The notes below the pieces were generated by a model that saw nothing but the letters and a program-made list of their open reading frames with translations, ran no database searches and was not told where the DNA came from. A DNA stretch of 64,000 bases, from assembly GCF_008831285.2 (NCBI RefSeq), contig NC_045139.1, positions 27,744,808 to 27,808,807 of the forward strand. The letters run 5' to 3'. Within the stretch, counting starts at the first letter, position 1; each line of letters starts with the position of its first letter. Source of the DNA: Nymphaea colorata (taxonomy: Eukaryota > Streptophyta > Magnoliopsida > Nymphaeales > Nymphaeaceae). This document shows positions 2,528 to 48,551 of this stretch, one piece after another. Both the position numbers and the translations under genes were made by a program.

Positions 2528-3398
2528 CATATTCAGGCAAATTTGGAGATTTAGTCAAGCCTTCCCCAAAGGTAGAACAACACTCAATAACCAGTTTCCA
2601 GAAAGGAATGTTTATATACATGCGTAAGGCATATGAGATGTTGAAGCTAGTGAGAGTAAGATTTAGTGGAAATAATCTGCAAGCAAGTTCTTTGTTTCCA
2701 TGTTTGTTGTAGACTACTTTATGCTGCTGATGGACAACTTTTTTTTTTCCCCTTGATTTGGATATGAATTTCGAAAAGCGGTACAGGAATTTTTCAGAGA
2801 TTAGGGAGGGTACACGAATGAATATCTATCAAGTAAGAAGCTCGTATTGCAAGGGGATTGTCCATCAAATGGTGAATGTTTGCTGCTGCCATTTTACATC
2901 AAGGGATTGCAAAACTGGTGCTTCTGAAGTTTTCTGCTGCCATTTTCTGTTTAGACACTTGATTCGCGTCGGCAAGTTGTTTGGTGAATGTAATATAAAT
3001 GGCTTATGATCTCCTGTATATTGTTTGAATAGAAGGATGATAAAATGTGTATACTGTATAGTGTTGCTTATTCTCCTCTTACTGTTGACCTGAACATGAC
3101 CCGATTACTTGGGAAAGTTATGCTGAAAGCGGCAAGATATGTGGTGGCAAAATATATCTTTTATTTGGATAAATTTTTGTGGCCTTCACAAGTTAAATTT
3201 TGAATGAAGAAAAGAATTTCTCTCTTTCATTATTCCAATAAATTCATTTAAATAAAAAAAGTACTGAAATTTTTGTTTTGGTCACCAAGGGACCCCTTAT
3301 ATTTAACCATGGTTTATCTAAGGGTGGTGAATATAAGACATATGAAATATACGGAAAATATTGGCCGTGATTTGAGAAAGTCTTCGACACTTGAGCGT

Positions 3399-3556
3399 GT
3401 CCCTCTCTCGCTCTTACTGTTCTCTCTCTCTTCCTCTTAGACCATAAAGCTTGAGAGAGAGAAACCCTAACCCTCGAGCTGAACCGAGATCCGGTCCCCG
3501 ACAGCTTTCCTCCGCCTTACCTATCTCTTTCTCTCTCTCAACCACAAACAAGGAAA
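3399..3556 (+). promoter_or_regulatory. CT-rich leader with telo-box, 5' region of the P3 gene
   Basis: A pyrimidine-rich stretch (about 3399-3440, mostly CTCTCTC) precedes the P3 start codon by about 120 bases, followed by AAACCCTAACCCT at 3462-3474. This telo-box motif (AAACCCTA) is known to be enriched just downstream of transcription starts of plant ribosomal-protein genes. No convincing TATA box was found at the usual distance. The transcription start itself is inferred, not seen. Confidence 0.6.
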
Positions 3557-6168
3557 ATGGGAGTCTTCACGTTTGTGTGCAGAAGCAACGGCGGCGACTG
3601 GAGCGCCAAGCAGCTCTCTGGCGACCTAGAGGGATCCGCCTCCTCTACTTTTGACCTCCAGAGGAGGCTCGTCCAGGCTGCCCTTTCTTGCGACTCATCC
3701 GGGCCCGTCCAATCCTCCTTCTCCCTCATCACGCCTTCATCTGCTGTCTTTCAGGTATCATCTCCACCACTAGTTTTCGTTTTATTTGTTGTTTTGCTTT
3801 TCGGCATTTGTGGAGCTTCATCGATCGTTGTAGGCTGCGATTTCTTTCTTCATGGTAGTATTCCTCTTCGTTTTCTTTTGGATTAGCATGTACGGAAAAA
3901 ATCACTCTTTTTTTGAGTTTTATGGATCTTTTTCATGATGTAATGGAAAAATTACAACTTTTTGAGGTTTTGACGATAATTTTTCCCTTATATTTATGGT
4001 GGCAATCTTTTTATAAGTACGCTTGAATCGGCGTCTGTAGGTAATTTGCATTAATTGTGTTTTCGTTGATTTTGCTTCTGTTTTTCTGGACTCTTCATCT
4101 CTTTTCCTTCCGTTATTTTATACAATTGAGTCGATCTTATCAGGTTTCGATGAAATTCCTTTCTTATATCCGTGTTTCTGGATTGTTCTTTTATACTAGT
4201 GTTGCTATTTGGTATATGCACAATAGTTCATTCCCTTAAGTGTTAGGTACCCAACGGATAATCCGAAAACCCTAGTGAGATTTTTTGAAGATAGCTGAAG
4301 ATTTATGTCTTTAGCAAGCCTCCAAGTCCTAACACATCGGCCTTAACAGGCGATGTCGTCCCAGGATTAGATGTTTCTTGCTTTTGATTATTTCTTAATC
4401 CAAGAGGCTCCCTAGTATTCTCATTGGGAATCTCCTCTACTGCAATATTACTTTGCTGATTGGCGTATATATAACATTTCAGTGCTTTTTATAGAAAACT
4501 ATGGGGTGATTTGGGTGTCCAACGTAATATTAGGGCCTTACACCACCAGCATCCTAAAAAACTCCCGTTTCCACAGGTGGTGTCCTTGGTCGCCCTTTCC
4601 TGGATGGTTCTTATTTTGGGTGTTTCATCCCAGGATGTATTTATTCTTTTCAATTTTGTGTTGACTAGGCAATGGTGGTTTATGTTGCTGCTACTTTAAT
4701 TTGGTGTTTTGATCCGGAAATTAAGTTATCATTCAAAAATTTTCTCATACACTTGCTCCAATGTTTTTGTTATCCTTATCCGCTGTTAGTGTCGTCTCTT
4801 TAGTAGAACAATCTTCCATTCCCCCTTTGACTTTTTATTTATTTATTTTTTTTATGGTGGGGGTTGGGGGAGGGGAGCGGGGGAATTAAGCGGTACAGGC
4901 TTTATGTGTATGAATTATTTAATCTTTTTTTTTTTATTGCATATTTTTGTTGTTTCGTTGGTTAGGATTGGCCAATCTCTATTGATAAGATATTATTCAA
5001 AATTCTTGTATGACTATCGCAGTTCACAAAATCATAAGGTATTTGGGAATCTGGATTTCCATAGCAACATCTTTAGAGACGAACTGTATGTGAGAATGTA
5101 AACATATGGTGTCGTTTAGAAATATCAGCTTGTGAAATCCAATGATAAATTTGCTATCATAATATAAATGCGCTAACCATGAGTCAGTTTTACAGCAAAG
5201 CCACGTCTGCTATGTGATTCTCAAAAAATGGACCATGATCTGATAAAGCTAAAGTTTACATGTCTTCACTGGGGCATACTTCGATTGAATGTACCAAATA
5301 TGATCTTTTTAGTTGTTATCTCACTTGAACTAACGGAGGTTCTGATTAATTGCATCGGGTCTCAGCTCACGTGATCATTTGGCTTTGAGATCCTTGGGAT
5401 TAAGATCAGACTTTTTCCCTTTGATCTTATATCACACCTTTTGTCAGTGGTAAATGGTAAAGGGGGAATCTTGAATGTATATCATAGATCAGACCTGAGA
5501 TCTTCGTTTTATGAACTGTGGATTTTGGTGCAGATTACTTGACACATTAGCTATGGCTCATCGGATTTATGAGTGTAATAGTAACAGAAAATGTGGTTTT
5601 TATAAAAAAAAACTTGAAAAAAAAACGCGATAAATTAAATGGCAGTTTAAAACTAAAAAAAGCGTTTTTCTGAAAAAAACGTTAAAAACGAAAATAACAC
5701 GTTTTTTTGTGTTTTTTCAGTTTTTCAGTTTTTTTAATGCAAAGCAGTTTTTTTTTTATTTGTTGGAAATCTACTTATATTTTGATGTTTGTGGTATTAG
5801 TTTCTCACTTATTTTATTTTTCTTTCATTTTTAGATTTTAAAATTTTACCGTATTTGCCCGCTTTTTTTTAAGTTCGCCGTATTATACCCGAGAAAAAGA
5901 TGTTATTTGTGACTATTAAGTTCCTTGTTCTTTCAAACAACCTATGGATGCATGAATGATCATTTAACTGCAGTTTTAGTAAATTAAGGTTTTGATCTTG
6001 TGCTAGGTGGTCATTGGAGGTGGTGGTGGAGGGGCTTTCGTTGGAGGAGGAGCAGTAGCAGCGGGTGGATCTAGTGCTCCAGCTGCTGCACCGGAGCCTG
6101 CAGCAGAAGAGAAAAAGGAAGAGAAGGAAGAAAGTGATGAGGATATGGGTTTCTCTCTTTTTGATTAG
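3557..6168 (+). CDS. RPP3: 60S acidic ribosomal protein P3, two exons
   Basis: Exon 1 is 3557-3754 (66 codons) and exon 2 is 6007-6168 (53 codons plus TAG), giving a 119-residue protein, the normal length for this plant-specific stalk protein. The intron (3755-6006, 2252 bases) is GT-AG in phase 0. The N-terminus MGVFTFVCRSNGGDWSAKQL is diagnostic of P3. It is followed by the dimerisation half ending SSAVFQ, a glycine/alanine-rich hinge (VVIGGGGGGAFVGGG), a charged EEKKEEKEESDEDM stretch and the conserved acidic-protein tail MGFSLFD, which in P proteins contacts elongation-factor GTPases. P3 works with P0, P1 and P2 in the lateral stalk of the cytosolic large ribosomal subunit. An intron after the VFQ residues is also what I recall for the Arabidopsis gene. 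No frame damage is seen. The intron contains AT-rich low-complexity sequence around 5590-5760. Confidence 0.95.
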
Positions 6169-6429: not shown

Positions 6430-8750
6430 GTTTTATTGTGTTTTAGGATGCTGATATACCACTTGTCATGAATTGTGGATAAACATCTCTGAATTCAAAG
6501 AGGGTGGTGTTAATATCTTGACTTTACCCGTTTATTTAGATTTCCAGTTGCATCAAACTCTGGAGCGTAAGAAATGAATCCTTAATGTCGACCTCCAAAC
6601 TCCATTTTGTCTTTTGCCGGTGAATATGGTCAGACTTCTCTGTTAATTGAAGTTATCACTATAAATTGGTCGGTATCGCTTTGTACGGAATGTCTTCTTG
6701 TGGAGTCTAAGATTCATTTTTAGGTAATGAACACAAAATTAAACTAAAGTAGTAGGAAAAGCTGTTTAATTTGTGAGATGAATCTGACTATGAATTAAAT
6801 ATGGATGTATTTTCCATTTGAAAAATTCCAAATATGTGTCAATTTATTTTTTATGAATGACATGAGAAGAGATTTTCCATTTGAAGCATAATCCTTGCAG
6901 CTGTTTTCTGGGAAGAATTTGGAAGCATATTTGTCCACCCTATGTTGTTCTTTGTTTGTAACTTCTGAGAGATCGATTGTATTGTCATCTATTGATCCAG
7001 TACTAGCATGGCAAGCCTTAGCAAGGAAGCAATTGAAGTGATAATCGCCAAGGCATCACCAAAGTGCAGAAAACTAGGAATTTTGAAATGCTTCAAGTAC
7101 GTCTTCCCAATGGCCAACTTCAAAATCATATCCATGTAAGGTTACTAGATTTAATTTGATACTTGGATACTGAATATTTGGATAGTTAATGACAAACAAA
7201 TGCCATAACCGTTTGGTAATAAAAACAAGTGTCCTTGTCATATCTGTCTTTGGAATACGTGTCCTAAAGGAGTTTTTGTCTATGTGGACAAGTGTATGCT
7301 TGGCCATAGGTAGCCAGTAGACAACATGCTCAACTTGTTTTTCGCGGAATTTGTTTAAATCATGGGATGGACATATGCAAACCAAGTTTGCATTTTTTGC
7401 GGTTTGCCATTGGGGTTCCTTTATTGGGGTTTTGGGGATTTTATTTGGGATTTGGAGATGGTGTTTGACGTTGGCGCATCCATTGGGGTTTGCTTAGTGG
7501 GTTTTGTCGCTAGGTCTTGCTAATGTCGCCATTTGTTTTTGTCATTCGGTGTTCCCACTTCCCAGTAATAGTTGTTGGGCTCTGCTGTTGAGATTCCATG
7601 TTGCTGCTATTGGATTTTGAGTTGGTCCTTCTGTCGTCACTGTTGGGCGTTGCCGTGCCCGTCAGATTTCTCCATTGGGGTTTTGCCTCTCCTGCACATT
7701 CTACCGATGGTGTTCTGCTTTGTCGTTGGGCCATTGGGACTTCCGGTTCGTTCATTTCCGCCGTTCGGTTCTGGGTTTTTCCACTCTTCTTAATGGCTTT
7801 CGCCTCTGTCCCGGTGCTTTCTGCTGTGTGGTTCTACCACTACTGCTTGTTTTTCGGATGTTGAGGTTCTGATGTTGGGTTGCCACCCAAGGTTATATTG
7901 CTGCCATCGTATATCCTGCTGTCTAGGTATACTTCCAAAGTGCAGTCTAGGTTTACTTGATTCTATCCCTTGATGCATTTACATAATTATTTTAGAACCC
8001 AGATTAAGCCTCATCGCGCCACTCCCCGTCAGCATGGGCACCCTTGGAAAGAGCTCAATCATGGCTAACTGATGCTTTTAAGTGGGACATGAAACTGACA
8101 TCCAAACACGCCTACAAATTAGACCTGGCCCTATGCCTGAAACCGGAGCCCAAGCTGGATACCCAATAACCCAGCCCGGGTTTTGCTTGGCCTGATTAAA
8201 ATAAAAAAACATTTTTCAAATATAAAATAATTTTTTTAAATATAAAAGATATTTTAATGATAATATATATTATTATTAAATAAAAATAAAAAAAATAAAA
8301 AATTTAATTAGGCTGACCTAGACCCAGGCCCAATCGAACCAAGTACTGTGTACCCATCGGGTACTTAGGCCCGTTGCCTACCTTAGTAGAAGATCACAAA
8401 GATATGTGGCTTGGGAGAGCAAGGGTGATTTGGGAATTAGAGGTGGCATGGCTTTAAATTCTGGTAGGAACTATGGGTAGATGGTCAAAGGTTAATCCAG
8501 GTCACCATTACCTCTAATTTCCCCATGAATGACGGATTAGGACCCTAATCAAATTAATTTAATTAATTGGGGATTTGTATATGAACAGTATATTATCAGA
8601 TTTAATCAACCAATAGGGGCAAGCTGGGTGCGCCACTAAGGGTGACATCAGCCATGGTGGGCTCCAACCAATTTCTATCAACAAAATGATGGTAAAATAA
8701 TAATAATAATCTATTTATAACTAGCGGCACCCCCATGGGGTGGCAACTTA

Positions 8751-42510: not shown

Positions 42511-43009
42511 GCATGACAAGTAGGGCTGCACACGAGCCGAGTCGAGCTCGAGCTCACCCAGCTCGAACTCGACTCGGCTTGAAATGCTCGAGCTCGAACT
42601 CGAGTCGAGTTCCTAACACGAGCTCGAGCTCGAGCTCGGCTCGTTTACCTCGTTTAATGTTTAATTATTAAACCAATAGTCAAGCTCGACTCGTTTAACT
42701 CATTTAGTCGAGCTCGACTCGTTTAACTCGTTTAACGTTTAAGAATTAAACCAATAGTCGAGCTCGACTCATTTAACTCGTTTACTGAATCAAACCAATT
42801 GTATTACTGCTAACAGTTTCATCAAAAAGATATATAAAACCACCTGGCATTAATTATGTTCAGATTGTCAACAATTTTTGGAATACATTATACATACAAG
42901 CAATGACTGTATCAAGTTCGAGATCACAGCAAGAACAATCTGAGGTGCACAGTGGAAAATTTCAAGTTCGTGATAAACTTCTCCAAGTGGAAAAGCCCCT
43001 CGTACAGGA

Positions 43010-43800
43010 CTAAAGGGTCTCACCTGGTTTCCCGAACTCTGTTACCTGCAAACACCACCTCATGTTGATCTTTCTCAAACCTGTCAGGTCACCAAATTCA
43101 TCAGGGAAGCTACTGATGGTTGCACAGTCAAACACATCAAAAAAGGGAGGTAGACGCACCAAATTACTGCAATAGTCAATCTCGAGTTCTGTGAGCTCTG
43201 GAAACATGTCTGCAATATTCAGTCCTGAATGGCAATTGGCCTCATCAGCGTCACAAAAGAACAGTGATAACTTTCTTAAGGCCGGCAGTGGCACTTTAAT
43301 TGTAGAAAGGGAGGAGACCAATATCCTCTCTAACCTAATTCTGCTAAGGTTTTTCAGAGAATCCAACTTTGGCAGACCACTTAGATCTGCAGGGCTCAAG
43401 CTATGATTTGCAACAATTAGACTTGGCAGAATACATGGCCAAGTCTCTTAGTAGATCTTGCTGAAAAACAAACAGGTCATTGAAGATACCATCCTCAACA
43501 GCATCATTCCTACATGAATCACATTCTTATCAGAAATATAACCCAATATGAGGTTTCATTTAGCAATAATGAATGCAAGTTGCTCACCTAGTTCTTTCAA
43601 CAAGAGTCACCAGATATCTGGCAGAAAGTTTTAGCAAAGCCACATAGGCTTCATGCTCACTTAGGCCATATAGTTCAGTCCACATGTCGATCAGGGAAGC
43701 TGCTGGGATCTTTTCATCCTCAGGAAAGCAGCCTAAGTCTGCAAAGCATTTGCGAAGTTGACCATCTAGAGAAGTTAGCATGGTTGATAAGCAGTTGAGT
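43010..43800 (-). pseudogene. ADR1-type helper NLR (RPW8-NB-LRR) fragment captured by hAT
   Basis: The first exon block (about 43800-43588) reads RKCFADLGCFPEDEKIPAAS, then LIDMWTELYGLSEHEAYVAL, the ARC2 end of the NB-ARC domain. A 78-base GT-AG intron (43587-43510) follows. The next block (43509 to about 43010) starts NDAVEDGIFNDLFVFQQDLL, a junction that reads continuously as in ADR1 proteins. It loses some sequence near 43440, then continues through leucine-rich repeats with KNLSRIRLERILVSSLS, LRKLSLFFCDADEANC, FPELTELEIDYCSNLVRLPP and GLRKINMRWC. ADR1 proteins are helper receptors that act with EDS1 complexes at the plasma membrane in immunity. The CC-R domain, P-loop and part of the LRR are absent, so it cannot work as a receptor. 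Confidence 0.87.
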
Positions 43801-44113
43801 AAGTCTTTGTGGTCACATCACAGACATACTGTTTAGGAAAGAAAACAGAAGCAACAAACGGAAAAGCTACCAACCTGAATTTGGACAAACAGGGAGCAAG
43901 CCTCCCAAAGAGCCTGAGCTTCCCATTCTTTTCATGGCTGTGGAAAAGATATATATGGGTGTATATAGTATATATAGTATACTATACAAACATGAATTAC
44001 ATTGAAGGAGGGAACCAAACAAAGGCACCCATGCCATAGAACTTACAAACATTTTCAAACTAGATAATTTTAGAGCTCGTTTAAGGCTCGATTAACATAC
44101 CCTTTTGAAGCAA

Positions 44114-44195
44114 GTTCAATCATGATAATGAGATACTTGAGGTGGGTAGACAAGAATCTCATTCTATTCTGCTCACATGATCACAATCATGCAGC
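44114..44195. repeat. 82-bp direct repeat inside hAT, copy 1
   Basis: GTTCAATCATGATAATGAGA onward is identical to 45686-45767 except for one base (ACAAGAATC versus ACTAGAATC). Confidence 0.92.
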
Positions 44196-44580
44196 CTAGC
44201 CTGCTAGTTAAACTAATAGACACCATTCATTTTGAAAGAATCAATTGAATAAGGAACATGAGGAATATACTAAATGAATGTTTGTAATGCATGTACAGTT
44301 GATATAAGATTGCACTAAATGATCTGAACAGATACCATTTTCAGATATGACCATTAGAAGATATGGTTTGATATACTAAATCATCAGCCAAAAAAATCAA
44401 CCCAGTACATGAAAATCAATCTTGAAGATGGGATAATAAAAAAGTTCTGACAAGCCCCAAGGCCATTATGGTAATCTGAAAATTACAATTGTGGAGAACG
44501 TTAAAAGCAAAAATTAGAAATCAACAATGATCAAATGGACAGGATAGTGCCTATTGATTCTCCATTCTATAAGATACTTC

Positions 44581-44865
44581 AAATGATATTTCTTACTTGA
44601 CTCAGTGGCAATGCATTGGCAAAATCAGCTTCTGTAATTCCAGTAATTTCACTTCTGAAAAATACAAACTTTATCAATCAGTTCATAGAAACCAAACATT
44701 CAGCTGCCCTAACAAAAGACATGCAGTAAGCCAGTACCTATAATCTGAGACAGCAATCTCATGTTGGACATAGGCCTGAAAAAGCACTTCTTTGACTTCA
44801 TCAACAAGACAAATTCCCTGCATAAAGATCCAATGTTCCATCGCTCCCCCCTCCAACCATCTCAC
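44581..44865 (-). pseudogene. Two unidentified exon-like blocks inside the hAT element
   Basis: On the minus strand a block ending near 44741 reads GICLVDEVKEVLFQAYVQHE then IAVSDYR before GTACTGG. A second block (about 44657-44600) reads SEITGITEADFANALPLSQ before GTAAGAA. Both have donor-like ends and protein-like composition. I do not recognise the family. They may be exons of a second captured gene, or of the transposase transcript. Confidence 0.45.
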
Positions 44866-45124
44866 AATCTAAGGCAGCCACTCAACGAAGTTGGTGGTTC
44901 TAGTGCACAAAGATACAAAGAGAACTGATTCCCACTCCCAAAGAAAACACAGCTCGTTGTTGGAACTAGCCAATGGCTAGTCGGCTGATACAAAGGCAGC
45001 AGAAAATAGGGAACAAAAATACAAGAAAAGAATAGAAAAATACAGAGGAAAAAAATAAAAATACACATAAAAAAGATCTACACATGTACATGCTTATGTA
45101 TTCAAAACAATACTATGTGATGGA

Positions 45125-45130
<6 letters not shown>

Positions 45131-45205
<75 letters not shown>

Positions 45206-45206
45206 T
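45131..45206. repeat. (TA)n microsatellite, about 76 bp
   Basis: Nearly pure TA run with a single TG interruption near 45186. It lies between the BED exon and the unidentified exons of the hAT. Confidence 0.93.
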
Positions 45207-45323
45207 TCTAACAAAACCAATGTTTACACTTCTAAGATTCAACAAGGAACAGCAGTCATAGAATCTTTGAAAGTGGAATACAAGATCCACAGCCATGAAG
45301 GCAATTCAGTACACAGTCTGTGT

Positions 45324-45572
45324 TCATTTGATACCATTTATAACAACCTCATCAAAATCATTCCATATTGTAGAAGTCTTTGACCTTGACCTTTTTGCAC
45401 CACTTATACGTACTTCATGAGCATCTATTGAAACCCCTTTATGGTCAGGGTCTTGCGAATCTATAGGAGTTTCATTAGAGGAATGTACTCTGATTGGGAC
45501 ATCATCTGAACTCGGTCTCGAATCACATACTTGTTTTCCCTTATTAATGCTCGAGCTTCCTAAATTTGTCAT
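45324..45572 (-). pseudogene. hAT transposase N-terminus (start of BED zinc finger), truncated
   Basis: ATG at 45572 opens MTNLGSSSINKGKQVCDSRP, a low-complexity N-terminal extension. The frame ends with KRSRSKTSTIWNDFDEVVIN then GIK and a stop. The last 20 residues fit the first half of a BED zinc finger (hydrophobic W..F..V pattern before the first CxxC), which hAT transposases use for DNA binding. The zinc ligands, the catalytic DDE-type core and the hAT dimerisation region are missing. In the minus-strand order it precedes the captured exons. Confidence 0.68.
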
Positions 45573-45685
45573 TATTCAAACTATTAATTTTCCCTCCTGC
45601 TCAAGCTGTTCTCCTATTTGAACATGAAAAGAAACTACTCATCAACAAGCATATTACCAGTTACGTCTAATCAAACAAGAAGATT

Positions 45686-45767
45686 GTTCAATCATGATAA
45701 TGAGATACTTGAGGTGGGTAGACTAGAATCTCATTCTATTCTGCTCACATGATCACAATCATGCAGC
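45686..45767. repeat. 82-bp direct repeat inside hAT, copy 2
   Basis: Partner of 44114-44195, with the same orientation and one mismatch. The copies bracket about 1.5 kb containing the BED exon and the unidentified exon blocks. Confidence 0.92.
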
Positions 45768-46328
45768 ATGGAAGCAAATGGTATGTTATCTGAAAGCATA
45801 AGACATAAACTGAAATAGTGTGACAGACATATATTTAGATGCATCCATGCGACAGAAACTGAAAGAACCTAGTAATGACTGATGCAATGAGATTTGGATT
45901 TTTTATGTAGATTTTTTCTTTATGTAGATCAGACCAAATCCATATTTGTTGAAACATGTTCTATCTTACATAAGCTCCTAGTTGTAAACAAGAATCTAAG
46001 TATATTTATGGAACTGACGTGCATAGTATTCAGTTTGCACTCGATTGATTCCAAGTCAAAAAGGCCTTGAACGAGTCTCTCTTATTAGTCAAATATACAA
46101 GTGCTTTCCATGTTCACTTATGCACAGATGTAATCTCAGTTCCTAAAGTAGTTACAACTTACAATCCACCCAAACCATTGGCTAGGAGCAGAAATGACTT
46201 TGGGAATAAACGATAATCACCAATAATGAAAAAATATAAGAAATACGAATGTTGAAGCTTAGATATGACCTTCATGGATACATACAAAGTTTAACCTTTG
46301 GTAACAGAGAACCTGGTCATGTAACTTA

Positions 46329-46922
46329 TCAACTAGAAAATGGTCCACTTAATTTTCCTTGTACCCTATTTGGTTGATGAAACTGTGAAATGTTCATCGA
46401 AAAAACTGCATAAAATTCATCAACAAAATATATAACAGCAATCATGGAATAACTACATCCATCATTGTTATACCAAGTACTTGTCAACTTATAGCAAATT
46501 ATACACATAGCTACAACATAAAGATCCATTGTACGAACAACCAAAACTTCTAAACACTTACAACAAGAAGTGCCTGGCGATATAGCTTTGCTAGCACATA
46601 TAAGTAGCATGACAGACAAATAACCAAGACCAAAGAAAGAGTAAATCAGAGCATATTTTGGGATTAGGTGAAGGCAGAGAAAGACAAGAGGCCTAACCAG
46701 CAGGTAAATCAGCGCAGCCAGGTATCCCACCCACAAAGTGGTTTCTGAGCCCAAAAGTTGTTTCTCCCTATCAGATGGGGAAGAGAGAGAGAGAGAGAGG
46801 TTCGCTAACTTGGTGAAAAATCCACAACCCAGTAATGAGGCTTCAGTCATCAGGAAGAAGCTTTCAAACACAAACGAGTGAGCAAGCCAGCGTCCTGTGA
46901 GATAAAGTTGTACCGTCTCCAC
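46329..46922 (-). other. 197-codon open frame of unknown meaning inside hAT
   Basis: An unbroken frame from ATG at 46922 with a strongly hydrophobic middle (TLWVGYLAALIYLLVRPLVF and YALIYSFFGLGYLSVMLL). I recognise no family. It lies between the CT-rich leader and the BED exon, where an untranslated leader or intron of the transposase gene would be expected. It could be chance in T-rich intron sequence, so I do not call it a gene. Confidence 0.3.
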
Positions 46923-47649
46923 AGTTTTTCCTTTTCTTCCCTATTTCTCTTTTGCTGCCTAGATCCATTATGAGAACTTTCCGTCACAACACGTTAAACA
47001 ATAAAAATGCATTAGTTATCAAGCTAGCAGCAAATTAACCAACTTCATCATAAGAAACTAGAGTGCCATTTGTAAAAGAAGCCATAAAGGAATCTGTCAA
47101 CAGAAGAATGACATTATCCATAATAGACATAATGGTCCTGCTGCTAATGATGACAACGACAACTATAGGGGAAAAGGAGACTTCAGATGTTCATCAGTAC
47201 TTCCACCTAACACAAACAAGATAAAGCAATAAAAACAAAGAAAACTCTTTAACACAGTTCGGTAAAAGTTACAGAGTCGAGGGAAGTACCCAGAAAAACC
47301 AGACGATAACCTCAGCATAAATCCATAATTCCCAGTTTAACAAACGACCGACCATAGTTCATGAAATAAGCGGCAGATATACGAGCAAGCCAAGCATCAT
47401 ATCACACATATACTCAATTTAAATGATGCATGATACCCTTGGAATCTTAAGTAAGACTCTTTAAATCAAGCACAAACCATGAAAATAATAGGCTACTGTC
47501 AGAATTCACCATAGACATCCGATAGAACAAAGAGAAGGAAAGAGACTTTTGATGCGTCAACGGAACCAACAAAAAGCAGAGATTAAGGCAAACAGAGAAG
47601 GAAAAAAGAGCCACTGAACTTGCTACACTACTGGCAGAACCTCTTCCTT

Positions 47650-47920
47650 GAGAGTTGGATATCACTGACTCACTGGAGAAGCGGAGAGGTGGAGAGCACA
47701 CTGACGCAGCCTCGCAGGGCAGCAGGAGCGCAGAGCACAGGCGGAGAAGAAGCACAGTGAAGCTGGGTGGGAGCACAGGCGAAGAAGGAGGCGAGAGCCG
47801 AGAGGCCAGAGAGGGAGAGTCGGAGTCGGAGAGAGAGAGAGAGAGAACGAAAACAAACCCTAGAACGAAAAAAAACCCTTTCCCGTTCCCGCTTGAGAAG
47901 AAGTGAGTCGTGACTAGTGA
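47650..47920 (-). promoter_or_regulatory. CT-rich leader with telo-box, probable promoter end of the hAT gene
   Basis: On the minus strand this reads as a GC-moderate region with a CT dinucleotide run (47830-47846) and CTAGGGTTT (47863-47855), the telo-box complement common near plant transcription starts. It sits just inside the right subterminal repeats and points toward the BED exon. Confidence 0.5.
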
Positions 47921-48127
47921 ACCGGTTTTTTTAAAATCGGTATGTTAATAGAGCCGAGTCGAGCTTTAACGAGTTCGCAAAGTGAACTCGAGCTTGACTC
48001 GATTAGTTAAACGAGTTGACTCGTGAACTCGAGCTCGACTCGTTTAACTAATGAAGCAGCTCGTTTACACTAATGAGTCGAGTTAAACGAGTCGAGTTCG
48101 AGTAACTCGACTCGTTGTGCACCCCTA

Positions 48128-48551
48128 ATGACAAGGAAGTTAGTCTCAAGAAGTGCACACAGTTTCTCAAAGGTAATGATGAAAGGAAAAACAAACACCC
48201 AAGTTAGAGCTATGACCGGAAATTCACTCCTCTCAGCCAGTCCCGTGAGAAGATCCTGGAATACCTCATTGCCAAAGGAATATAGTCTTGTCAAAAGTAT
48301 TAGAGCCTCCGAAAATGTTGGGAGGAGATAAAGAAAACCTATGTAAGTTTCATCGTGCCCCTGGTCATGACACTAAGGATTGTTTTGTCCTCAAAAACAT
48401 TATTGAAGACTTCATCAACAATGATCTCAAGATTTGTGATGATAGCACCCCCGAGGTATTGAGGAATCTATTTCCTGACCACGGGAAGGCAGCAGTGGCC
48501 ATGATCACCACAGGCATTATACTCCTATATCATCCGCAGGAGCACATCTGA
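48128..48551 (+). pseudogene. Tat/Ogre gag, 3' part with zinc-binding motif
   Basis: The gag frame resumes after the hAT target duplication. The region at about 48320-48430 reads NLCKFHRAPGHDTKDCFVLK, then NIIEDFI. This is the C-x2-H-x4-GH-x4-C-type motif found near the end of gypsy gag proteins of this lineage. Confidence 0.82.

Follow-up and report, generated by a model that had tools for sequence, protein, structure and literature searches.

Has a DNA transposon taken up part of an immune receptor gene at the locus considered here, and if so, from which gene, by what route and with what consequence? The question arises from a 5.6-kb segment within a 64,000-nucleotide stretch of the Nymphaea colorata genome (C2:27744808-27808807; hereafter the window), which an earlier note had described as a hAT transposon carrying a piece of a nucleotide-binding leucine-rich repeat (NLR) gene of the ADR1 type. 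Homology searches were carried out over the 407.8-Mb genome (783 contigs, designated C1, C2 and so on, with retrieved stretches bearing L numbers); only the best candidates of each genome search were scored, and the numbers of copies and places reported below are lower bounds. The results of these studies indicate that the segment very probably belongs, as a non-autonomous Pack-type copy, to a plant hAT family with recent activity, and that the sequence it carries from a gene of the NLR class RNL is probably a decaying passenger without a selected function.

The Element and Its Insertion Site

The left flank of the segment belongs to a repeat family, with 39 other places among the matches listed (best 40 of 297 candidates scored), and in all five of the retrieved relatives of this surrounding repeat the two flanks meet without the element, i.e., these are empty sites. 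Exactly one copy of ATGACAAG, the 8-bp sequence repeated on either side of the segment, is present at the flank joint of the empty sites L045 and L049, and in L047 the right flank aligned only from its base 20. Three open reading frames (ORFs) of the surrounding repeat in copy L045 gave no Pfam match and their gag-like look was judged by eye only, hence the neutral name repeat. The empty sites, together with the exact target site duplication (TSD), establish that the insertion is real and that its limits are, to the base, those which the earlier note had given (Table 1). Its inverted ends and dense subterminal arrays are likewise borne out: the 11-bp terminal inverted repeats (TIRs) match at 10 positions, and the motifs CTCGA, TCGAG, ACTCG and CGAGT account for 30 matches within 300 bp of the left end and 25 within 300 bp of the right end, whereas the intervening 5007 bp have 14. 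An 8-bp TSD, short TIRs with subterminal repeats, and a family transposase with hAT domains (described below) all identify the element as a hAT transposon. Its ends are of a TAGGG type, which we take to differ from the Ac/Ds TIR and which would set it apart from the maize Ds2 and Ds-l4 elements. For the opposite view, that there was no insertion and that the segment is a degenerate NLR locus with chance terminal repeats, no supporting points were found; given the empty sites, the TSD, the copies on other contigs and the presence of the parent gene on another contig, it is hardly credible.

The Captured RNL Sequence and Its Parent

The NLR capture is visible as three pieces, which total 778 bp and show 25 differences (96.8% identity) from a gene on C3, where the region C3:21519811-21521086 matches all of them at 96–97%. 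The earlier note had proposed a search for an intact parent, and the gene model built here from splice signals consists of five exons with a stop-free frame of 809 codons, i.e., it is intact in sequence. Its separate exon ORFs matched the Pfam domains RPW8 (9e-30), NB-ARC (1.2e-10), and LRR_14 (9.1e-16), and the parent can safely be placed in the class RNL. Other RNL-like places on C3 are weaker matches, with 68–70% identity over about 300 bp (three places), 83% and 94% over about 100 bp (two places), and 92–95% over 38 bp (two places). Several RNL-related stretches lie near the parent within C3:21179622-21588958, suggesting an RNL cluster.

The part of the earlier description that made the captured gene an NLR holds, in the form of an RNL, but the label ADR1-type is not supported. 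The bit scores by themselves are ambiguous as to whether the parent would belong with ADR1 or NRG1 proteins. When compared with solved structures, the parent scored 521 bits with 8zf0, 461 with ADR1, 446 with At5g66900 and 444 with At5g04720 (the last two of which we take to be NRG1.1 and ADR1-L2, respectively); its first exon alone is nearest to At5g66900 (44.8 bits versus 27.6 and 25), and its last exon is nearest to 8zf0 (226 bits) and ADR1 (215), with At5g66890 at 212. In an unrooted tree of six sequences, ADR1, At5g04720 and 8zf0 were split from At5g66900, the parent and L017, a neighbouring RNL, with 100% support, and the parent paired with L017 with 95–96% support. The sampled ADR1 proteins therefore form a clade that excludes the parent; a tree this small and unrooted would likewise not support placing the parent in the NRG1 clade.

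Within the element, exons 3 and 4 of the captured gene are joined in frame across an intact 78-bp intron and the protein reads through the junction, as had been claimed. Because this intron was kept, the RNL sequence was probably taken up as genomic DNA. The piece that spans it is, by its position, presumably ARC2. Capture from complementary DNA (cDNA) was considered, since the distances between the three parent blocks are shorter in the element than in the C3 gene. It was rejected, as the 78-bp intron is retained and the limits of the missing stretches do not coincide with those of introns. At the capture's left edge, 36 bp (43010–43045) are 97% identical to C5:17684943-17684977, possibly another small patch.

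Two stretches of the parent are missing from the capture. The loss of positions 5368–5693 of L009 (end of exon 4, intron 4 and start of exon 5) shifts the reading frame, and stops come after the junction 43421/43422. The loss of positions 4920–5091 of L009, inside exon 5, left one extra base at the joint, through which the two LRR pieces are mutually in frame and both lie in a 145-residue ORF. The in-frame exons 3 and 4 over their intact intron, and this joined ORF, might be taken to mean that the pieces are in recruitment as exons, i.e., as new or decoy NLR parts, via the retained intron. We regard this as very unlikely, since the shift of frame at this junction speaks against selection for a protein role, the start and the P-loop region are both absent, and the five relatives with the same junction (see below) retain less of the gene. 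Additionally, the QHD motif of the parent, presumably the MHD-equivalent motif of this RNL, is altered to QQD in the element, through position 43458. The 25 differences, which are unpolarised, comprise 13 nonsynonymous, 10 synonymous and two intronic ones, and together with the frame-shifting junction they are what is expected of passenger DNA.

Related Elements and the History of the Capture

The possibility, raised in the earlier note, that these termini exist in no other copy proved false. The second result that the note would have taken as a refutation, NLR exons adjoining full NLR sequence in syntenic genomes that lack TIRs here, is made less likely by the empty sites within this genome. 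Pieces of the same RNL gene are present in at least 10 further elements (C13a, C13b, C10, C9, C7, C6, C13c, C3, C8, and C10b, named after their contigs), which brings the RNL-bearing elements to at least 11 with the window copy. Both ends could be read in all 10 of these relatives, and their TSDs are exact 8-bp repeats in nine and match at 7/8 in C10. A twelfth complete element with an exact TSD, at C1:22979706-22981797, showed no RNL match among the matches listed; of the 12 elements with both ends read, 11 thus have an exact TSD and one a 7/8 match, with three further elements, each read at a single end, left out of this tally.

The junction 5367|5694 is common to the window copy and five others (C10, C13a, C6, C7, and C9). 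The five junction-sharing copies have two other deletions and their parent sequence ends at 5828, while in the window copy it runs on to 6087 and the deletion at 4920–5091 is wider; C13b and C13c retain smaller parts of the RNL gene. As the window form and the five-copy form each hold parent sequence that is absent from the other, their ancestor should have carried a larger capture. The best explanation for these observations would be a single RNL capture, followed by different losses in different copies.

The 698-residue ORF of the C13c element (C13:16590414-16597163, or 215–6964 of L042; 6750 bp) runs from ATG to stop and matched the hAT RNase-H and C-terminal dimerisation domains (PF14372, 2.5e-28, and PF05699, 2.9e-27, respectively); a BED finger match (0.028) failed the cut-off. 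Among the nine sources checked for the whole ORF, some of them partial loci, it was found solely in C13c. The C3 copy (C3:18643934-18650683, L061) carries the same 698-codon ORF and is identical to C13c at 6749 of 6750 positions. The TSDs of these two copies differ (CCCGTGTG and CGTCCATC), and this difference, together with the single mismatch, points indirectly to very recent transposition of the family. The window copy retains the first 82 codons of this transposase and lacks its body, and it is therefore non-autonomous.

Beyond C13c and the C3 copy, 36 matches over the transposase ORF, at 83–98% identity and in some cases to the same element, were listed (best 40 of 2033 candidates), and they represent at least 30 separate places. 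A search for the exact start anchor in the relative on C11 (L043) was negative, and its longest frame is 273. Part of the transposase gene is duplicated at this locus (C11:17965600-17971599), where positions 3090–3736 of C13b match twice. C13b was itself considered as an intact autonomous element on account of a 691-codon stop-to-stop frame, and was rejected because the ATG that the other copies have is not in frame in this one. This 12.9-kb element (C13:14876149-14889088, L021 and L016) contains a NUP50-like piece, NLR remnants and a nested copia-like ORF (L021:6684-8687).

Origin and Possible Roles of the Captured Pieces

Based upon these observations, a course of events can be proposed. An RNL stretch of at least 1.3 kb would have been captured once, as DNA, and the host pieces may have been acquired after excision, by template switching or in the course of gap repair; capture through faulty post-excision repair is a proposal cited in the accessible part of one study of maize elements (PMC3260210). 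The element, probably mobilised by transposase supplied in trans from intact relatives, inserted into the repeat and duplicated 8 bp, and its RNL piece would be decaying passenger DNA without a selected function. This last reading is favoured because the frame is broken, the losses differ between copies, and coding matches to the parent are absent from C13c and the C3 copy, in which the transposase ORF is whole.

Several points weigh against this account. The 108-bp piece is fitted almost as well by C3:21210976-21211083 (94%) as by the parent. Among the eight copies that were compared with the parent, the window copy retains the most RNL sequence, and it also has 1517 aligned bases of an SBP-box locus against 919, 919 and 894 in three others; either recency or selection could explain both. 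Its first 0.6–0.75 kb are just 78–83% identical to those of six relatives, which makes action of the intact ORF on this copy less certain. Lastly, we infer the passenger status of the RNL piece from sequence comparison, and the capture, known from its product, is likewise a reconstructed event.

Alternatively, the captured pieces could act in trans to dampen the parent helper NLR by giving rise to small RNA or antisense RNA, a supply on which the earlier note had speculated. Of the 2410 21-nt positions in the parent coding sequence, 265 have an exact match in the window element and 338 are covered by the nine elements scanned taken together, and RNL sequence is borne by no fewer than 11 elements; a sequence match of this kind is, however, expected of any recent capture. 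All matches are in the orientation of the transposase gene, no parent-coding 21-mer in the opposite orientation was found in any of the nine elements, and transcripts reading through from the transposase gene would contain the NLR sequence in sense, all of which is contrary to an antisense supply. Additionally, the two whole-ORF copies have no 21-nt match to the parent coding sequence and 15 to its intron sequence. We consider this dampening role unlikely. It also appears quite unlikely that a selfish hAT family with an intact transposase gene, through up to eleven RNL loci feeding small RNAs, weakens or buffers one helper NLR while spreading. A passenger without a selected function remains our preferred interpretation of the RNL piece.

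Other Captured Pieces and Internal Rearrangement

The earlier account of the content of the element was correct as to the NLR pieces; the other host-gene pieces and the transposase start went unlisted in it. Host pieces with parents elsewhere in the genome, which characterise Pack-TYPE elements, are represented by the RNL (C3) and SBP-box (C7) sequences in the window copy and by NUP50 (C1) in its relatives. The SBP-box parent exon on C7 matched Pfam SBP (1.2e-17), and 960 bp of this parent are missing at 46697/46698 in the window copy. Shorter SBP-box parts are present in C13a, C13b, and C6, and none was found in the other copies compared (C10, C7, C9, and C13c).

Another piece (44274..44931) is perhaps derived from an RNA-exonuclease gene, a weak name that rests on Pfam matches of the C10-locus peptide to SDN1 (0.0049) and RNase_T (0.067); the window peptide scored 0.036 and 0.098, and an unrelated phage family scored better (0.016). 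This piece is also 98% identical to C9:8343079-8343736, which adjoins a related TIR-like end. In C13b, a piece with a Ran_BP1 match (4.4e-12), presumably NUP50, aligns over 628 bp, with 99% identity, to a 473-residue open frame on C1, and its 65-bp gap falls within one open frame of the parent locus, which is likewise contrary to cDNA capture. In the window, a minus-strand orientation is common to the RNL, transposase and SBP-box pieces, whereas the NUP50 piece is oriented opposite to the C13b transposase. The relative on C7 has a possible glutaredoxin-like piece (L020, about 8241–8336; Pfam 0.0017 for a 32-residue peptide). As relatives carry the sequences before and after 44114 apart, the window copy has been rearranged, and an 89-bp segment is present in it twice.

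Table 1. Positions of the element, its ends and its internal pieces in the window.
Feature	Position	Strand	Description
Complete hAT element	42521..48127		5607 bp; basis: TIRs, TSD, empty sites, further copies
Left TSD	42513..42520		ATGACAAG; exact 8 bp
Right TSD	48128..48135		ATGACAAG; exact repeat of left TSD
Left TIR	42521..42531	+	TAGGGCTGCAC; 10/11 bp match with right TIR
Right TIR	48117..48127	-	GTGCACCCCTA; 11 bp
Left subterminal array	42521..42820		30 motif matches
Right subterminal array	47828..48127		25 motif matches
RNL piece, parent codons about 725–760 (exon 5, LRR)	43037..43144	-	104/108 identical
RNL piece, parent codons about 575–667 (exon 5, LRR)	43146..43421	-	266/276 identical
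RNL piece, parent codons about 388–493 (parts of exons 3 and 4)	43422..43815	-	383/394 identical
78-bp intron, GT..AG	43510..43587	-	same place as parent intron between exons 3 and 4; 2 differences
Deletion junction (parent 5367|5694)	43421..43422		common to 5 other copies; frame shift
Candidate RNA-exonuclease (RNase_T/SDN-like) piece	44274..44931	-	93–95% to C10:11674614-11675339
First 82 codons of family hAT transposase	45327..45572	-	body missing
SBP-box locus piece	46142..47646	-	93% to C7:19570939-19573377; tail of SBP exon and adjoining intron by position
89-bp segment, present twice	44107..44195 and 45679–45767		96%

Relation to Known Elements and Significance

The element is a Pack-hAT, a kind that is already known, and provides an unusually well-documented example of it. 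In the accessible part of a survey of hAT gene capture in maize and rice (PMC8903248), Pack-TYPE elements are defined as non-autonomous and those with a transposase match are classed as autonomous. The Pack-hAT elements described there share with the present one the hAT termini, 8-bp TSD, host-gene fragments inside and occurrence in copy families; they differ, as far as that text goes, in that here 54 bp of the same NLR gene persist in the whole-ORF relatives and the host gene is an RNL.

That survey is later than the maize study of 2011 (PMC3260210), in whose accessible text hAT gene capture is called rare, with two Ds2 and nine Ds-l4 elements bearing gene fragments among 903 elements. One of them, Ds2-22, has two exons and the intervening intron of a gene on another chromosome, from which its authors infer DNA capture. 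The Ds2 and Ds-l4 elements resemble ours in belonging to the hAT superfamily and in carrying gene fragments, with an intron kept in Ds2-22, but here, relative to what is described for them, one capture can be traced through several descendants by a shared junction. The soybean element Tgm-Express1 (PMC2613891, accessible part) similarly combines pieces of several host genes (five) in one DNA transposon, although it is a CACTA and not a hAT element. In pepper, NLR sequences have also been multiplied by transposons, as retroduplicates produced through long terminal repeat (LTR) retrotransposons; according to the available portion of that report (PMC5664825), they arose via spliced RNA and have fewer introns, whereas the present route was via DNA, with an intron kept and fragments only. 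Our literature search brought up no hAT element reported to carry an RNL piece, which does not imply that no such report is in print.

The element thus provides a recent and clear case of a process already known, to which this work adds, beyond the earlier note, at least 10 further RNL-bearing elements, the shared junction and the whole-ORF copies. Its added interest lies in the readable history of one capture within a family in which some copies are very recent and a transposase ORF is preserved whole. As the parent, the shared capture product, the later deletions and the near-identical whole-ORF copies can all be read in one genome, the order of these events is testable. If it is true that small RNAs arise from the RNL-bearing loci, this family would also allow the influence of a transposon on an RNL immune gene to be tested in a natural setting.

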